From the NCBI RefSeq assembly GCF_000024545.1, contig NC_013947.1, forward strand, positions 3,286,001 to 3,350,000: 64,000 nucleotides of DNA, written 5' to 3'. The DNA comes from Stackebrandtia nassauensis DSM 44728 (GTDB taxonomy: Bacteria; Actinomycetota; Actinomycetes; Mycobacteriales; Micromonosporaceae). The position numbers and the translations under genes are program-made. Shown here one piece after another: positions 56,840-64,000 of the stretch. Below the pieces are notes generated by a model, which saw nothing but the letters and a program-made list of their open reading frames with translations, was not told where the DNA came from and did no database searches. The first letter of the stretch is position 1. Each line of letters opens with the position of its first letter.

Positions 56840-57581
56840 CGAGACTGGGCACCGCCGACAGGCCCACCGGTTCCCCGGGCCCGGCGTGCGGCAGCAGGAA
56901 CGTGCGGATACCCAACTGGGTGGCCGCGGCGTCGGCGAACGAGTCGCCGACCATGAGCGCCTCGTCGGGTTCGACCTCCAGCCGCAGACACGCCTCCCGG
57001 AAGATCTCCGGCTCCGGCTTACAACACCTGACCTCATAGGACAGTATCCAGTGGTCGATGAGGTGGTCGAACCCCAGATGCTTGGCCACCGGACGCACGT
57101 CGAAACCGATGTTGCTGACCAGCGCGATCGGGATGGCCGCGGCCCGCAACGCCTCCAGCGTCGGGATCGTGTCCGGGTAGGCCACCCAGCCCTCCGGGGA
57201 ACACAACCGCTCGTACATGCCCTCGGCGAAACCCTCGAACGCGCCCGAGGTCTGCGAGGCCAGACCCACGAACGCCTCCCGGTGGTCTATTTCGGACAGG
57301 TCCCGGTCGGCCCAGGCCTGCGCGAAGTACGGCAGCACCTTCGCCGGTTGCCCCGAACCCACCCAACCCAAGGCGCCCAGGGCATCGCCCAAGACGGTGG
57401 CCCGGTACTGCGGCAGTGTGACACCGGCGGCCGCGGCGGCGTGCTCCACCGACACGCTGGGTGACTCGACCTGCGCGAGCGTGCCGTGGAAGTCAAAAAG
57501 GACAGCACGAATCGGCCGAACGGTGGTTGCGGGGCCGGTGTCGTCTGGGTTATTCGGGAGCACGGAAGGGACAATACCCAT
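56826..57581 (-). CDS. HAD-superfamily hydrolase with variant motif I
   Basis: A 251-residue phosphatase-like HAD protein. Motif I is AVLFDFHGTLA, where the second catalytic Asp of the usual DxD is His. Motif II is in IALVSNIGFD, motif III the Lys of RCCKPEPEIF, and motif IV EALMVGDSFADA. A helical cap (about residues 50-130) lies between motifs I and II, as in phosphoglycolate phosphatase-like members. The His substitution may change or reduce phosphohydrolase activity. ATG at 57581; a later start nearer VRPIRAVLF is possible. It is divergent from helY by 81 bp. Confidence 0.85.
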   Translation of the reverse strand: MGIVPSVLPNNPDDTGPATTVRPIRAVLFDFHGTLAQVESPSVSVEHAAAAAGVTLPQYRATVLGDALGALGWVGSGQPAKVLPYFAQAWADRDLSEIDHREAFVGLASQTSGAFEGFAEGMYERLCSPEGWVAYPDTIPTLEALRAAAIPIALVSNIGFDVRPVAKHLGFDHLIDHWILSYEVRCCKPEPEIFREACLRLEVEPDEALMVGDSFADAAATQLGIRTFLLPHAGPGEPVGLSAVPSLVSRV

Positions 57582-57662
57582 CGCCGCGCGGCCGACCGCG
57601 CAGTGGCCCGCGGGTGTTTCCTAGTCCGTGTGTCGGCCAGGTCGCACACTACTCTTGCGGGC

Positions 57663-60422
57663 ATGACAACTCCGCGTCCGCGCGAACGCCCGGCTGACAC
57701 GGCGGACAAGGGCACCGACTCACCGGCGACGCGCTACGCCGCGGCACGCTGGCGGTCGCAGTTCCCTCAGCTCGCCGATTTCTCCTCCCGGCTGTCCTTC
57801 GACCTGGACGACTTCCAGATCGAGGCCTGCCAGGGCCTGGAACGCGGCTCCGGGGTGCTGGTGTGCGCCCCCACCGGCGCGGGCAAGACGATCGTGGGGG
57901 AGTTCGCCGTCCACCTGGCGTTGTCCAAGGGCCGCAAGTGCTTCTACACGACACCCATCAAGGCGCTGTCGAACCAGAAGTTCCACGACCTGGTGGCCGT
58001 GCACGGCGCCGACAAGGTGGGCCTGCTGACCGGCGACACCGTCATCAACGGTGAGGCGCCGGTGGTGGTCATGACCACCGAGGTGCTGCGCAACATGCTC
58101 TACGCCCGCTCGGCCACCCTGGAGGGGCTGGGCTTCGTGGTCATGGACGAGGTGCACTACCTGGCCGACCGGTTCCGCGGCGCCGTGTGGGAGGAGGTCA
58201 TCATCCACCTGCCCGCCTCGGTGAGCCTGGTGTCGTTGTCGGCGACGGTGTCCAACGCCGAGGAGTTCGCCGACTGGCTGGTGTCGCTGCGCGGCCACAC
58301 CGAGGTCGTGGTGTCCGAGCACCGTCCGGTGCCGCTGTGGCAGCACATCATGGTGGGCCGCCGCCTGTTCGACCTGTTCGCCACCGAGGGCGACGACCGC
58401 ACCGAGGTGCACCCGCAACTGATGCGCCACATCCGGGAACAGGAACGCCGCCTGGGCTACGACCGGCGCGGCCGGATGCGCCGCCCGAGGCCGCCGTACC
58501 GCAGCGACGTGATCGCCAAGCTCGACTCCGAGGCGCTGCTGCCCGCGATCGTGTTCATCTTCAGCCGGGCCGCGTGCGACGCGGCCGTCAGCCAGTGCCT
58601 GCTGGACGGGCTGCGGCTGACCGACCCGGGCGAGGAGGCCGAGATCGCCCGCGTCGCCAACGCCCGCGTCGCGCACATCTCCACCTCCGACCTCAACGCC
58701 CTGGGCTACTACCCGTTCCTGGACGGGCTGCAACGCGGCCTGGCCGCCCACCACGCGGGCCTGTTGCCGGTGTTCAAGGAGATCGTGGAGGAGCTGTTCG
58801 CCGCCGGCCTGGTCAAGGTCGTGTTCGCCACCGAGACCCTGGCGCTGGGCATCAACATGCCCGCCCGCACCGTGGTGCTGGAGCGGCTGGTCAAGTACAA
58901 CGGCGAGGAACACGTCGACCTGACGCCGGGGGAGTACACCCAGCTGACCGGCCGGGCCGGACGACGCGGCATCGACATCGAGGGCCACGCGGTCACCATC
59001 TGGGGCGCCGACGTCGACCCCCGGCACGTGGCGGGCCTGGCCTCGACGCGCACCTACCCGCTCAACTCCAGTTTCTCGCCCTCGTACAACATGGCGATCA
59101 ACCTGATCGCGACCCTGGGCACCGACAAGTCCCGGGAGTTGCTGTCGTCGAGTTTCGCGCAGTTCCAGGCCGACCGCACCGTGGTGGGCCTGGCCGAGCA
59201 GGCCCGCGCCGCGCGCCGCGCCGCCGGCGAGTTCGACCCGTTGATCTCGTGCGACCGCGGCGACTTCGAGGAGTACTTCGCGTTGCGCATGGCCGCCACC
59301 GACCGCGAGAAACGCGCGTCGCGGCAGCGCAAGGCCGACGCCCGCACCGACGCGCGCGCCTCACTGGCGCGACTGCGCGTCGGCGACGTCATCCGGATCC
59401 CGGCCGGTCGCCGCGCGGGCCTGGCCGTCGTGCTGGATCCCGGTCTGTCCCGGGCGGGCCGCGACGGCGAGCAGCGTCCGCTGGTGCTGACCGAGGCCCG
59501 CTGGGCTGGCCGGCTGGCCGGTTCGGCGTTCCCGCAGGCGGTGGAGGCGCTGGCGCGCATCAAGGTGCCCAAGCACTTCAACCACCGCAACCCGGCGCTG
59601 CGGCGTGACCTGTCGGCGGCGTTGCGGGCCGCGGCGGCCACGGCACCCGGCGCGGTGGAACGCGGCCGTCGGCGCCGCGCCGGTGACGACCCGGAGCTGG
59701 AGAAGCTGCGGGCCCAGTTGCGGGCGCACCCGTGCCACGAATGTCCCGACGTCAACGAGCACGCCCGCCAGGCCAACCGCAGGCAGCGGCTGCTGTCGGA
59801 CTACGAGCGGCTGCAAACGAAGGTCAACCGCCGGTCGGGTTCGCTGGCGCGCACCTTCGACCGGGTGCGGGACATGCTCAGCGACTACGGGTACATCGCC
59901 TCGGGCACCGTCACCGACGCCGGGCGGGTGCTGTCGCGGATCTGGTCGGAATCGGACCTGCTGGTCGCCGAATGCGTCCGCGAGGGCGTGTGGGACGGCC
60001 TGTCGGCACCGGAACTGGCCGCGGTGGCCAGCATCGTTTTGTACGAGTCGCGGCGTGACGCCGACATGTCACCCGCGCTGCCCAAGGGCAATGTCGCCTC
60101 GGCGGTGGCCGCGACGCTGCGACGGTTCGACGCCATCCACGCCGACGAGTCGAGGCACGGCCTGAGCCTGACCGGCGAACCCGACCTGGGGTTCGTGTGG
60201 CCCATGTACCGCTGGGCGCGGGGCGAACCTTTGGCCAAGGTGCTGGCCGCCGGGGACGGCCCCGACGGTTCGATGCCCGCCGGTGACTTCGTGCGCTGGG
60301 CTCGCCAGACCATCGACCTGTTGGGGCAGTTGGCTTCGGCGGCGGGCCCGTCCTCGCCGCTGTACTCGACGGCGCTGGCGGCGGCCGACGCCGTGCGCCG
60401 GGGCGTGGTCGCCGACAGTTGA
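57663..60422 (+). CDS. helY: Ski2/Mtr4-like DExH RNA helicase (HelY)
   Basis: A 919-residue superfamily 2 helicase. The Walker A motif is CAPTGAGKTIVGEF (about residue 70), the DExH box VVMDEVHYLADRF, and motif III LVSLSATVSN. The second RecA domain contains ALGINMPARTVVLE and QLTGRAGRRGIDIEG. The C-terminal domain (about 600-919) includes a cysteine-containing HPCHECPDVNEHARQANR. The arrangement matches mycobacterial HelY. Partners are probably RNA-processing enzymes. ATG at 57663 follows TACTCT by 7 bp, so the mRNA may be nearly leaderless. Confidence 0.92.
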   Translation: MTTPRPRERPADTADKGTDSPATRYAAARWRSQFPQLADFSSRLSFDLDDFQIEACQGLERGSGVLVCAPTGAGKTIVGEFAVHLALSKGRKCFYTTPIKALSNQKFHDLVAVHGADKVGLLTGDTVINGEAPVVVMTTEVLRNMLYARSATLEGLGFVVMDEVHYLADRFRGAVWEEVIIHLPASVSLVSLSATVSNAEEFADWLVSLRGHTEVVVSEHRPVPLWQHIMVGRRLFDLFATEGDDRTEVHPQLMRHIREQERRLGYDRRGRMRRPRPPYRSDVIAKLDSEALLPAIVFIFSRAACDAAVSQCLLDGLRLTDPGEEAEIARVANARVAHISTSDLNALGYYPFLDGLQRGLAAHHAGLLPVFKEIVEELFAAGLVKVVFATETLALGINMPARTVVLERLVKYNGEEHVDLTPGEYTQLTGRAGRRGIDIEGHAVTIWGADVDPRHVAGLASTRTYPLNSSFSPSYNMAINLIATLGTDKSRELLSSSFAQFQADRTVVGLAEQARAARRAAGEFDPLISCDRGDFEEYFALRMAATDREKRASRQRKADARTDARASLARLRVGDVIRIPAGRRAGLAVVLDPGLSRAGRDGEQRPLVLTEARWAGRLAGSAFPQAVEALARIKVPKHFNHRNPALRRDLSAALRAAAATAPGAVERGRRRRAGDDPELEKLRAQLRAHPCHECPDVNEHARQANRRQRLLSDYERLQTKVNRRSGSLARTFDRVRDMLSDYGYIASGTVTDAGRVLSRIWSESDLLVAECVREGVWDGLSAPELAAVASIVLYESRRDADMSPALPKGNVASAVAATLRRFDAIHADESRHGLSLTGEPDLGFVWPMYRWARGEPLAKVLAAGDGPDGSMPAGDFVRWARQTIDLLGQLASAAGPSSPLYSTALAAADAVRRGVVADS

Positions 60423-60436
60423 GGCCAGCCTCGGCC

Positions 60437-61168
60437 TCAGCTGCCTTGCCGCAGGTGGCCGAGGACGGTGTCGAGTGCTTGGGTCACGGCCTGGCGCGAC
60501 TGCTGCGTGTGGTCGGCGAAGTCGAAGCCGTGCTGGCCGTCGGGGACTTCGATGACGGTCAGGTTCGCGTCGGCATTCGAGGCGGCTGCCCGGAACCGGG
60601 TCACCGCCTCGGCCAGGTCCTCGCGTTCGCGTCCGGCGTTGGACAGCACCACCGGCAACCGTCCCGCGTGGGCGATGGCGTCGATGGGCCGCATCCGTTG
60701 CGGGATACCGAAACCGCGCACGTCGTCCAGCATCGGGTACGTCAACGCCAGGCACCGCAGCCACGGCGGGGGCTCGCGCAGGTAGTCCGCCGACAGTGGA
60801 CCGCCGCCGGAGAAGTGCCACAGCGACAGCCGGTCGCCGTCGACGCGGGGATGTTCGCGCACGGCGTCGATGACGGCGTCCAGTTTCGCCGCCGAGGCGT
60901 CGTAGTCGGGTTCGTCGCCGGAGGAGTGGGTGAACACCACCCCGGCGGCGCCGCGTTCGGCGGTGGCGCGGCCGTAGCCGAGGTACACCGGCCACACGCG
61001 CGGTCCCGGCCACTCGGACGGGTAGGGCATGCCGTGCACGTAGACCACGGCCGGGACCTGCCAGTCGCCGTCGGGCAGGTAGACGTCGATGTCGTCGCCG
61101 ATGGGGTCGGGAGCCAGGTCGGGGGTGGAAAGGACGAAGGGTGCCTTCGTGGGCGGGATCTGGTTCAC
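60437..61168 (-). CDS. Dienelactone-hydrolase-like alpha/beta hydrolase
   Basis: A 243-residue protein. The oxyanion region is VVYVHGMPYPSE, the nucleophile elbow is LWHFSGGGPLSA (SGGG, with Ser about residue 127), and the C-terminal His is in DGQHGFDF. This matches the BAAT/dienelactone-hydrolase-like group. GTG at 61168 is chosen; it lies 5 bp after the stop of the upstream PEP-enzyme gene, so the two are co-transcribed. The longer frame to 61273 is unlikely because it reads an Arg-rich shadow sequence. The substrate is unknown; hydrolysis of an ester related to the neighbouring enzyme is possible. Confidence 0.8.
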   Translation of the reverse strand: MNQIPPTKAPFVLSTPDLAPDPIGDDIDVYLPDGDWQVPAVVYVHGMPYPSEWPGPRVWPVYLGYGRATAERGAAGVVFTHSSGDEPDYDASAAKLDAVIDAVREHPRVDGDRLSLWHFSGGGPLSADYLREPPPWLRCLALTYPMLDDVRGFGIPQRMRPIDAIAHAGRLPVVLSNAGREREDLAEAVTRFRAAASNADANLTVIEVPDGQHGFDFADHTQQSRQAVTQALDTVLGHLRQGS

Positions 61169-61173
61169 ACCGA

Positions 61174-63732
61174 CTACTCTACGTCGCCACGCTCCACAAT
61201 CTCCACTGTGCCGTTTCCGCCGTCGACGCGGACGCGGTCGCCGTCGTTGATGCGGGTGGTGGCGTCGCCGCAACCCACGACGGCCGGGATCCCCAGTTCC
61301 CTGGCCACGATGGACGCGTGGGACAGGGAGGCCCCGATGTCGGTGACGACCGCGCCGAGCCTGGGGAACACCGGGGTCCAGCCGATGTTGGTGATCTTGG
61401 TGACGAGGATGTCGCCGACGTCGATGCGGTGGGCCTGGCTCATGTCGGCCACGACCCGGGCGACGCCTTCGACGACGCCGGTCGACCCGGCGGTGCCCAC
61501 GACGGTGTCACCGCGCGCGGCGGCGCCCGCGTTGGGTGCGGCCAGGTCGCCGCGCCGCGCCGGATCGGCGGCCCATGCCTCGGGGTCGAACGCGCCCCGG
61601 ATCCAGGTCGGGTACACCGGCAGGGTGCGGTAGTGGTCGTAGGTGGCGCGACGGGCGGGCACCCGGGCGGTGGCGGTGTCGTCGCCGTCCAGCAGGGCCT
61701 CGATCTCCTCGAACTCGCAGAAGAACACGTCGTCGCCGTGGCCGGTGATCTCGCCCAGCCGCAGCAGGAACTCGCGGGTCACCCACGCGACCCGCACGGC
61801 TTCGGAGCGGGCGGCCTCGCGGGCGCGCACCGCCTCGGTGGCGGCGTTCATGCGTTTGGCCAGTGCGGCGACCTTGCCGGGGTGGTTGGCGGTGAAGCGT
61901 TTCATCGCGGCGTCCTTGGCCTCGGTCTGGCGGGCCAGCAGCGCGTCGACGTCGGGGGCGTCCTTGAGCCCGGCCAGTTGCGCGTCGAGCCAGTTCGGGT
62001 CCTCGGCGGGGCGGGGCGCGTACATCTCCATCTCGTCGGGGCAGCGGTGTCCCCACCGGGCGATGTAGGTGTCGGCGTCGATGTCGCCGTCGGCCAGTTG
62101 CCGCAGGCCCAGCAGCGGGCCGAGGCTCGCCAGCGATTCAGTGGTGGTGTGGGCGCCGGTGACCAGCGCGTTGGCGTCGGCGTCGTCGACGTACTTGAGC
62201 AGCCAGGGCCGCAGTTTGGCCAGCGCGTTGCCGTTGACGCGGCCTCCGGCGGCCAGCATCCGGGGCGCGTCGTGTCCCAGCCCGACGCATTGGTTCGTCC
62301 AGACCTCGGCCAGCTCGGCGACGGTGGTGGCGGCTGCGATCGCGGTGCGGGCGGTGTCGCAGCGCGCCGGGAACTTCGCGACGTAGTCGTCGAGGTTCTT
62401 TTGGTAGTGCTTGACCTCGGCGGCGAAGCGGCGCGCGTCGGGCAGCACCAGCCGGATGGTCTTCCACCACGAGAACGGCGGTCGTGGCATGCCCGCGGCG
62501 GCCGGTGGTACGCCGAAGGCCAGCGCGCCGGCCTTGCGCATGAGCGAACCCATGCCCAAAGCCTTGGCCACCCCCATCAGCAGGCTGTAGTTGATGTACA
62601 GGCGGCCGCCGATGTTGCCGCACACCCGGTGCTCGCCCAGTCCGGGGATGGCCATGGCCGCGCCCAGGTTGTTCTTGGTCATCGACCAGGTTATGGGGGT
62701 CATGATGCTGGGGACGGCTTCGGCCACGTTGGACGCCGTCCACAGGAAGTCGCCGTTCAGACTGTCGTTCCACTCCTCGCGCGCGACGGGTGCGGCGGCC
62801 AGGTTGGTGATGGGCCGGGCCTGCAACACCGTGAAGGCGCCGTCGGCGAGGGCCCATTCGATGTCCATGGGCTGGCGGTACAGCGCGACGACGCGGGCGC
62901 CCAGCGCGGCCAGCCTCGCCGCGGCTTCGTCGTCCAGGACCGGGAGACCGCGTTGGTCTTCGGGTACGTCGGTCTCGACGGTGCCGCCGTCGACGCGCAC
63001 CGTCTTGACAGTCTTGTCGGCGATGGTCTGGTCGACGACGGCGCCGCTGTTGGCGTCGACGGTGATGGTGTCGGCCGAGACCTTCCCGGACACGACGGCC
63101 TCACCGAGGCCCCAGGCGGCGTTGATGATGATCTGGTCGCGGGCGCCGGTGACGGGGTTGGCGGTGAACATGACCCCGGCGGCTTCGGCGTCGATGAGTT
63201 CCTGCACGACCACGGCCATCGACACGTCGTCGGCGGCGATGTCGTTGCGGGCCCGGTATTCCACGGCCCGTTCGGTCCACAGTGACAGCCAGCAGCGTTT
63301 GACAGCGGCGGTGACGGCCTCGACGCCGACGATGTTGAGGTAGGACTCCATCTGCCCGGCGAACGACGCCTCGGGCAGGTCCTCGGCGGTGGCCGAGGAC
63401 CGTACCGCGACCGCCGCACCGCTCAGGGTGGCGTAACCGGCGGCGATGGCCTCGGCTACCGCGTCGGGCATGGGCGCGGCCTCCAGCAGTTCGGCCACCG
63501 TCCGGCACGCCTCAGCCAGTGCCTTGGCGTCGGTGACGTCGATGCCCGCCACGATGGAGTGTGGATTCAGGCCGGAGGTGAAGGACTCGTAGGCGGCGGT
63601 GGTGACGTGGAATCCTTGCGGGACCGGTAGTTTGGCGCGGGCCATGATGGCCAGTGACGCGCCTTTGCCGCCGGTGTTGTGGGTGGCGGCGGCCTCGGCG
63701 TCGAGCCGAAGCCACAAAGGATGCTGTGGCAT
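61174..63732 (-). CDS. PEP-synthase-family phosphotransferase, rifampin phosphotransferase-like
   Basis: An 852-residue enzyme with three domains. Residues 1-320: ATP-grasp-like PPDK N-domain (GGKGASLAIMARAKLPVPQG, AVRSSATAEDLPEASFAGQ, VMFTANPVTGARDQI). Residues about 330-740: a helical substrate domain with no pyruvate/PEP barrel. Residues about 760-852: the swivelling phosphohistidine domain with GASLSHASIVARELGIPAV (His about 805). Absence of the TIM barrel and the overall length match rifampin phosphotransferases (about 860 residues) rather than PEP synthase. No rifamycin-associated palindrome is seen upstream. A MarR regulator lies just upstream in the same direction, and an alpha/beta hydrolase follows. 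Another hydroxylated substrate is possible. Confidence 0.82.
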   Translation of the reverse strand: MPQHPLWLRLDAEAAATHNTGGKGASLAIMARAKLPVPQGFHVTTAAYESFTSGLNPHSIVAGIDVTDAKALAEACRTVAELLEAAPMPDAVAEAIAAGYATLSGAAVAVRSSATAEDLPEASFAGQMESYLNIVGVEAVTAAVKRCWLSLWTERAVEYRARNDIAADDVSMAVVVQELIDAEAAGVMFTANPVTGARDQIIINAAWGLGEAVVSGKVSADTITVDANSGAVVDQTIADKTVKTVRVDGGTVETDVPEDQRGLPVLDDEAAARLAALGARVVALYRQPMDIEWALADGAFTVLQARPITNLAAAPVAREEWNDSLNGDFLWTASNVAEAVPSIMTPITWSMTKNNLGAAMAIPGLGEHRVCGNIGGRLYINYSLLMGVAKALGMGSLMRKAGALAFGVPPAAAGMPRPPFSWWKTIRLVLPDARRFAAEVKHYQKNLDDYVAKFPARCDTARTAIAAATTVAELAEVWTNQCVGLGHDAPRMLAAGGRVNGNALAKLRPWLLKYVDDADANALVTGAHTTTESLASLGPLLGLRQLADGDIDADTYIARWGHRCPDEMEMYAPRPAEDPNWLDAQLAGLKDAPDVDALLARQTEAKDAAMKRFTANHPGKVAALAKRMNAATEAVRAREAARSEAVRVAWVTREFLLRLGEITGHGDDVFFCEFEEIEALLDGDDTATARVPARRATYDHYRTLPVYPTWIRGAFDPEAWAADPARRGDLAAPNAGAAARGDTVVGTAGSTGVVEGVARVVADMSQAHRIDVGDILVTKITNIGWTPVFPRLGAVVTDIGASLSHASIVARELGIPAVVGCGDATTRINDGDRVRVDGGNGTVEIVERGDVE

Positions 63733-63741
63733 CCGTGGAGT

Positions 63742-64000
63742 CTACGAGTCGTTCAGCCGGATGGCGGCGTCGCGCAACACCTGTGTGACGTGGAGGGTCT
63801 GGCGCAGTTCGTCGGTGTCGAGTTCGCCGAGGATCTTGCGGAACTGCGACAGGCCGTTGTCGGTGATCTCCTCCATCAGGTCCAGGCCCTCGTCGGTCAG
63901 CGACACCCGCCGGATCCGGCGGTCGTGGACGTCTTCGGTGCGGCGCACCAGATCCTGGGCGACGAGGCGGTCGACGATGCCGGTGACGGTGCCCAGTTTG
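63742..64000 (-). CDS. MarR-family regulator, C-terminal part (runs off the window end)
   Basis: The visible 85 C-terminal codons begin inside the winged helix (KLGTVTGIVDRLVAQDLVRR) and continue TEDVHDRRIRRVSLTDEGLD, the MarR wing. The dimerisation helix ends DAAIRLNDS. The gene is 9 bp upstream of the rifampin-phosphotransferase-like gene and probably in one operon with it. MarR proteins commonly sense the drug handled by the adjacent gene. The N-terminus lies beyond the window. Confidence 0.88.
   Translation of the reverse strand, partial: KLGTVTGIVDRLVAQDLVRRTEDVHDRRIRRVSLTDEGLDLMEEITDNGLSQFRKILGELDTDELRQTLHVTQVLRDAAIRLNDS

Follow-up and report, generated by a model that had tools for sequence, protein, structure and literature searches.

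Rifampin phosphotransferases (RPHs) such as RPH-Lm of Listeria monocytogenes (PDB 5FBS, 5FBT and 5HV1) combine an ATP-grasp domain, a central acceptor domain and a C-terminal swivel domain in one chain, and in RPH-Lm the ATP-grasp and acceptor sites lie 49 angstrom apart (PMC4844700). The substrates of the large group that includes the RPH-type dikinases have been little explored (PMC4844700), and enzymes of this type are not tied to rifamycins, because the zearalenone phosphotransferase ZPH1101 of Bacillus subtilis (PMC11768653) and the phenol dikinase HpeHI (PMC12167813) use other substrates. We analysed a stretch of 64,000 nucleotides from Stackebrandtia nassauensis DSM 44728 (NC_013947.1, positions 3,286,001 to 3,350,000; hereafter the window), whose end carries a marR-dikinase-hydrolase operon that an earlier note had described as a possible unit inactivating rifamycin or another drug. 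The dikinase is predicted to have the architecture of RPH and retains none of the rifampin contacts, and a divergent efflux pump of the RND (resistance-nodulation-division) type lies on the other side of marR. We favour, with somewhat better than even confidence, the reading that the locus is one arm of a divergent MarR-controlled unit of efflux plus phosphorylation, whose acceptor is probably not a rifamycin.

The three genes run on the minus strand in the order marR, dikinase, hydrolase, with gaps of 9 bp (marR/dikinase) and 5 bp (dikinase/hydrolase), just as the earlier note had described them (one strand, gaps of 5-9 bp). The start of the pump gene falls past the window edge; sites beyond that edge are given in window numbering, which is the coordinate in the locus L038 + 53999.

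60437..61168, minus strand: alpha/beta hydrolase of weak dienelactone-hydrolase type, 243 aa from the GTG at 61168 (Pfam DLH, alignment)
61174..63732, minus strand: dikinase of RPH architecture, 852 aa (open reading frame, Pfam, structure prediction)
61210..61419, minus strand: C-terminal swivel (phosphohistidine) domain of the dikinase, residues 772-841 (Pfam PEP-utilizers, E 7e-23)
61318-61320, minus strand: His805 of the swivel domain (alignment with RPH)
61525..62799, minus strand: central acceptor-binding domain, residues 312-736 (model of the domain alone, residue table)
61816..61821, minus strand: Arg638-Glu639, opposite the catalytic Arg666-Glu667 of RPH (residue alignments)
62719..62721, minus strand: Glu338, which replaces Gln337 of RPH (residue alignments)
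62776..63675, minus strand: ATP-grasp domain, residues 20-319 (Pfam PPDK_N, E 2.3e-96; residue map)
63742..64000, minus strand: truncated marR gene, of which the window contains the 3' part (open reading frame list, Pfam MarR)
L038 9743-10198, up to about 64197 in window numbering, minus strand: complete marR, 151 aa from a likely GTG
64254-64268 in window numbering, outside the window: palindrome between marR and the RND gene
64326-67550 in window numbering, outside the window: RND pump gene, divergent from marR

The dikinase was compared with RPH-Lm at the 9 catalytic and 12 rifampin-contact positions taken from Stogios et al. (PMC4844700). Proteins outside 640-960 aa were dropped from the alignment, as were the broken or cut rows L056, L069, L092, L096, L117 and L124; the length filter also removed L055 (961 aa), and 11 rows of the clade of the window dikinase remained in the alignment and the tree. 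Six of the nine catalytic positions are identical to RPH-Lm (Lys22, Arg117, Glu297, Arg666, Glu667 and His825), and the other three are conservatively changed (Thr136Ser, Thr523Ser and Lys670Arg), with K23, R111, S130 and E292 of the dikinase opposite K22, R117, T136 and E297 of RPH. The Lys and Arg of the ATP site, the Arg-Glu pair (Arg638, Glu639) and the catalytic His (His805) are all present, and the Pfam domains together with these positions agree with the earlier description of intact ATP-grasp and phosphohistidine domains. At the rifampin contacts, which the earlier note had named beforehand as the check on the middle domain, the window dikinase is identical at 0/12 positions and the 11 clade members at 0 to 2, compared with 2 to 9 of 12 in the inner RPH rows (n = 9) and 9/12 in the RPH of the genus member G003. 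The identity to RPH-Lm is 15% in the central domain and 39% in the ATP-grasp domain, against 50% and 48% for the G003 RPH. Ala337 and Glu338 stand opposite Gln336 and Gln337 of RPH, on which MAFFT and profile-profile alignment agree, and Glu occupies the Gln337 position in 11/11 aligned clade members. The window protein further differs from RPH-Lm in Arg642 for Lys670 and in the swivel motif DIGASLSH for EVGGLMTH.

The window protein resembles ZPH1101, a phosphotransferase with an essential late His whose tested substrate is a non-rifamycin toxin; the residues reported as needed in ZPH1101 are Asp627, His630 and His795 (PMC11768653), and Glu639, Arg642 and His805 of the window dikinase appear to occupy matching positions. 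Another dikinase of the S. nassauensis genome (L046:8928-11450) keeps the Arg-Glu pair, and its residue opposite Lys670 of RPH is a His; this spacing is reminiscent of the Asp/His pair described in the zearalenone phosphotransferase.

Domain order and predicted fold point in the same direction as the catalytic residues. The Pfam order of the dikinase (ATP-grasp, then C-terminal swivel) is that of RPH and unlike that of phosphoenolpyruvate (PEP) synthase, and the chain ends after the swivel, with no PEP/pyruvate-binding domain behind it by Pfam. With phmmer, both ends aligned with RPH-Lm and residues 323-553 stayed unaligned. The AlphaFold2 model of the whole protein had a mean pLDDT (predicted local distance difference test) of 89, and among the 50 entries listed in the structural comparison, more than 400 residues were aligned only for six RPH entries (651 to 754 residues, root-mean-square deviation (rmsd) 12.5 to 14.4), including 5hv1 with Z 38.1, 754 residues and rmsd 13.6. 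When the central domain (312-736) was modelled alone (pLDDT 88.6), RPH accounted for 6/6 of the PDB matches at E<=0.001; the model gave Z 22.8 and rmsd 3.6 over 359 residues against 5hv2, versus Z 10.2 for the best non-RPH chain. These results support the assignment of the predicted protein as a single-chain small-molecule dikinase of RPH architecture.

Profile scores and phylogeny set this dikinase apart from RPH. On the NCBIfam RPH model NF041857, it scored 400.7 bits against a cut-off of 999, while the positive controls L021, L019, L064 and L112 scored 1261.5, 1540.3, 1536.8 and 1627.6 bits; the ends of L019 and L021 are truncated. The other dikinase-like proteins of the same genome scored 413 (L039), 607 (L045) and 430 bits (L046), so that none of the four found reaches the RPH cut-off. 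The PEP synthase models, whose cut-offs are 740 and 598, gave 378 and 391 bits, and in every match listed (25 of 27 rows) the NCBIfam score was below the curated cut-off. In a tree of 56 rows, built after removal of 26 of the 82 sequences in the alignment (PEP synthases for the most part), the window dikinase fell into an 11-row clade (Shimodaira-Hasegawa-like approximate likelihood ratio test (SH-aLRT) 100), while 18 rows formed a separate RPH clade (SH-aLRT 100). A topology constrained to put only the window protein with the RPHs was rejected (approximately unbiased test, p 5.9e-32), a test that is too easy because the constraint also tears the protein from its own clade. Judged from these sequences, the clade is distinct from RPH, whether or not the two are sisters.

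The recurrent neighbour of the dikinase operon is the pump, which lies outside the window. The divergent gene encodes an RND transporter of 1074 aa (Pfam ACR_tran, E 1.8e-218) and starts 128 bp from the likely GTG of marR, whose longer frame matches Pfam MarR at E 1.5e-15. This pump stands beside MarR in 4/4 genus loci with a MarR-linked dikinase (G000, G001, G002 and G004), and a dikinase is found at this place in 4/5 genus genomes. In the fifth, G003, the locus holds the pump, MarR and a relative of the hydrolase of G001 (40% identical), and no dikinase; dikinase loss in G003 is quite possible by sequence comparison, because the closest of three MarR queries to its MarR is that of G004 (64%). 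RND relatives were present in 22/41 genomes, and we examined RND loci in 10 of the 18 RND-bearing genomes besides the four with a MarR-linked dikinase. A MarR relative was located beside the pump in 6 of these 10; with G003, this shows that the pairing of pump and MarR extends beyond the loci with the dikinase.

marR and the pump gene share one intergenic region with an inverted repeat, the arrangement of a MarR-controlled divergent efflux locus. This region contains one promoter-like element for the marR operon, TTGACT-18-TAACAT (mean 0.1 in shuffles), and the palindrome TTCGTATGATGCGAA follows directly after it, adjoining the -10 box of marR. An exact match to the pattern TTCGNNTNATGCGAA occurs once in the S. 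nassauensis genome and also lies at the equivalent place in G003, which has no dikinase there, and in G004, a total of 3/5 genus genomes; the reversed control had no match in any of the five. We rejected a wider regulon of this palindrome, given the single exact site in the window genome and the overlap of the sole extra genus site (G004) with a predicted coding sequence. Overlapping the palindrome, a perfect 8-bp stem GATGCGAA-ATA-TTCGCATC (L038:10244-10262), also flagged as terminator-like, could be extra half-sites or an attenuator. The marRAB system of Mycobacterium smegmatis likewise has a MarR repressor and a palindrome that control transporter genes, but these are ABC transporters in one operon, unlike the divergent RND pump plus dikinase described here (PMC4143341).

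Rifamycin-response genes are reported to be preceded by a palindrome, the rifamycin-associated element (RAE), given as 19 bp in the first of two reports (PMC10719064, PMC8655204). Our query was a 19-mer validated on RPH-gene controls, in which it occurred with 1 mismatch upstream of L019 and L064, both above the NCBIfam RPH cut-off. With this query no RAE was found at the window promoter, where the best match had 9 mismatches, or across the genome, where the best matches, five in number, had 3 mismatches each (reversed control, 9 matches). The earlier note had likewise seen no such element, and its remark that the inducer may be a different molecule is supported. The absence is no proof against RPH, because some RPH genes lack the element too: the best matches had 7 mismatches at L021 of G003 and 5 at L112 of Myxococcus. 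L021 is an RPH by profile score and contacts, yet no recognisable RAE lies within about 420 bp upstream of it.

To place the dikinase among its relatives, we considered named loci that were the best 80 of at least 589 candidates; the genome sets used may overlap in species. A clade gene (E<=1e-120) was present in 12/394 sampled genomes of the class and 5/200 of the family, for which reason we call the clade sparse. In 18 of the 26 clade loci examined for neighbours, the gene immediately upstream on the same strand encodes a repressor (TetR in 14, MarR in 4), and in several of them, for example L052, L053, L056 and L145, the TetR gene is predicted to share 4 bp with the dikinase gene. The S. 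nassauensis genome itself carries a TetR-linked paralogue that is 55% identical to the window dikinase; just upstream of its TetR gene, an inverted repeat AAACCGACCGACGGTTT was seen by eye behind a TATAAAT-like box (L039:7900-8712). No paper on the clade or on a MarR-RND-dikinase locus was found among open-licence papers.

The hydrolase, which the earlier note had counted as a member of the unit, does not hold that place, and the partner that recurs is the pump. Its Pfam DLH match is weak (E 0.0019, 18.3 bits, under the cut-off of 21). The Ser of an FSGG motif is common to 7/7 aligned sequences (6 homologues and the window protein), as is a late His, and no relative among solved structures was found by sequence at E<=0.1. 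Its type was not found in the other four genus genomes at E<=1e-10; the hydrolase of the G001 locus is unrelated to it, and G002 has no hydrolase gene after the dikinase. Around the six homologues in relatives, no MarR, TetR or RND relative was found within about 1.5 kb on either side, and the dikinase-like hits of those genomes sit elsewhere. We therefore rejected the hydrolase as a conserved partner, since its homologues occur in other contexts and its type is absent from the other genus genomes. In G004 (L042:9023-12301), no stop codon separates the dikinase frame from a following Abhydrolase_6 domain, and the two appear to form a dikinase-hydrolase fusion.

Within the 20 kb that surround the locus, ten further genes were of mixed kinds by Pfam, namely sortase, HAD hydrolase, helicase, 5'-3' exonuclease, acyl-CoA dehydrogenase, AsnC regulator, amino-acid permease and a weak MG2 match, and two of the ten had no match. 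A DEAD-box helicase with a DSHCT domain (window 57486-60422) lies on the other strand and converges on the operon, its stop 14 bp from that of the hydrolase. An APH-family phosphotransferase gene is located on the other strand after the pump (L038:13771-14544).

These neighbours bear on the idea that the enzyme is a catabolic dikinase like HpeHI, CreHI and PpsAB, phosphorylating a phenol or a similar compound to start its breakdown, with the hydrolase acting later. Such RPH-type dikinases exist (PMC12167813) and follow the same dikinase scheme, HpeI (9goj) matches the window ATP-grasp domain with Z 31.7 over 303 residues, the weakly dienelactone-hydrolase-like gene is next in the operon, and an acyl-CoA dehydrogenase gene lies a few genes past the pump. 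However, each of these systems consists of two proteins that start catabolic pathways (PMC12167813), while the window dikinase is fused, Pfam names no ring-cleavage or carboxylase family among the 10 neighbours within 10 kb, the hydrolase is not kept in the genus, and the recurrent neighbour is an efflux pump; we consider a catabolic role unlikely. The repressor-plus-pump context also speaks against a natural-product enzyme. Prodigiosin ligases PigC and RedH share the scaffold of RPH-type dikinases, and the NCBIfam RedH and PigC models do match the window protein (407 and 393 bits), but these scores are far under the cut-offs of 1350 and 1300 and no such biosynthetic family was named by Pfam among the 10 neighbours, which makes a making or tailoring role improbable. 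Still less credible is a central-metabolism PEP synthase, a reading to which we give almost no weight: the PEP synthase models match the two shared domains, but with scores under their cut-offs, and the C-terminal swivel, the RPH-like central-domain fold and the sparse distribution disagree with it, so that it was ruled out on architecture.

A true rifamycin phosphotransferase, one of the possibilities named in the earlier note, would explain the identical three-domain architecture, the best whole-length structural matches and the retained Arg-Glu pair and His. Against it stand the lack of all 12 contacts, the score far below the NCBIfam RPH cut-off, the separate clade and the RAE that was not found, as well as a clade N protein of Clostridium difficile that conferred no rifampin resistance (Stogios et al., PMC4844700), and we regard this reading as very improbable. 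The lack of rifampin-binding residues is one half of what the earlier note had named as refuting its reading. The claim of a drug-inactivation unit is supported as far as a MarR operon with a small-molecule dikinase of RPH architecture is concerned and is not supported for rifamycin as substrate, with "other drug" surviving as the best guess.

Several observations weigh against a repressor-controlled efflux-plus-phosphorylation unit built around a non-rifamycin dikinase. Contact counts alone cannot define an RPH, because the outer rows (n = 8) of the 18-row RPH clade match just 1 to 5 of the 12 contacts, and the placement of the whole 11-row clade with the 18 RPH rows was rejected weakly (p 0.02, at a cost of 47 log units, for a grouping chosen after tree inspection); both points also favour a rifamycin RPH. 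The alignments behind both structure models held RPH relatives, which favours an RPH fold and makes the fold result not fully independent. One of the 11 aligned clade members, L061, has Gln at the catalytic Glu667, and two clade copies (L155 and L156) are interrupted by an internal stop. Eight of the 26 clade loci have no repressor directly upstream, where an FMN oxidoreductase, a glyoxalase-like gene, a response regulator, doubtful open reading frames or nothing were found instead. With one mismatch, TTCGNNTNATGCGAA is near chance (10 genome matches, two of which are the marR-RND site, versus 6 for the control), and the exact pattern was not found in G001 and G002, though MarR, dikinase and pump are kept there. 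Finally, the pump-MarR pair exists without the dikinase, so that pump and dikinase need not share a substrate.

For the divergent unit that we favour, the following course can be proposed. Free MarR would bind TTCGTATGATGCGAA and repress its own operon and probably the pump gene, until a hydrophobic toxic molecule releases it and the operon makes the three-domain dikinase. By analogy with the RPH mechanism, ATP would charge His805 of the swivel at the ATP-grasp site, the charged swivel would move to the central domain, and a hydroxyl of the bound small molecule would receive the phosphate in a reaction catalysed by Arg638 and Glu639. As the dikinase does not have the rifampin pocket, a rifamycin is most likely not its acceptor, and given this different pocket and the neighbouring efflux pump it may well phosphorylate some other toxic small molecule. 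Pump and kinase would then act on the same or related compounds, and the hydrolase, as a lineage-specific add-on, may cleave an ester in them.

More broadly, and only tentatively, the locus may belong to a so far unrecognised clade whose dikinases phosphorylate antibiotics or toxins other than rifamycins and which spread as repressor-dikinase cassettes, with TetR in most lineages seen; the genus copy would sit in a MarR-RND locus in which one repressor switches efflux and phosphorylation of one compound. An RPH-like domain match alone should not be read as rifamycin resistance, and here the repressor, the palindrome and the pump offer a regulatory handle for finding the inducer, and hence the substrate.

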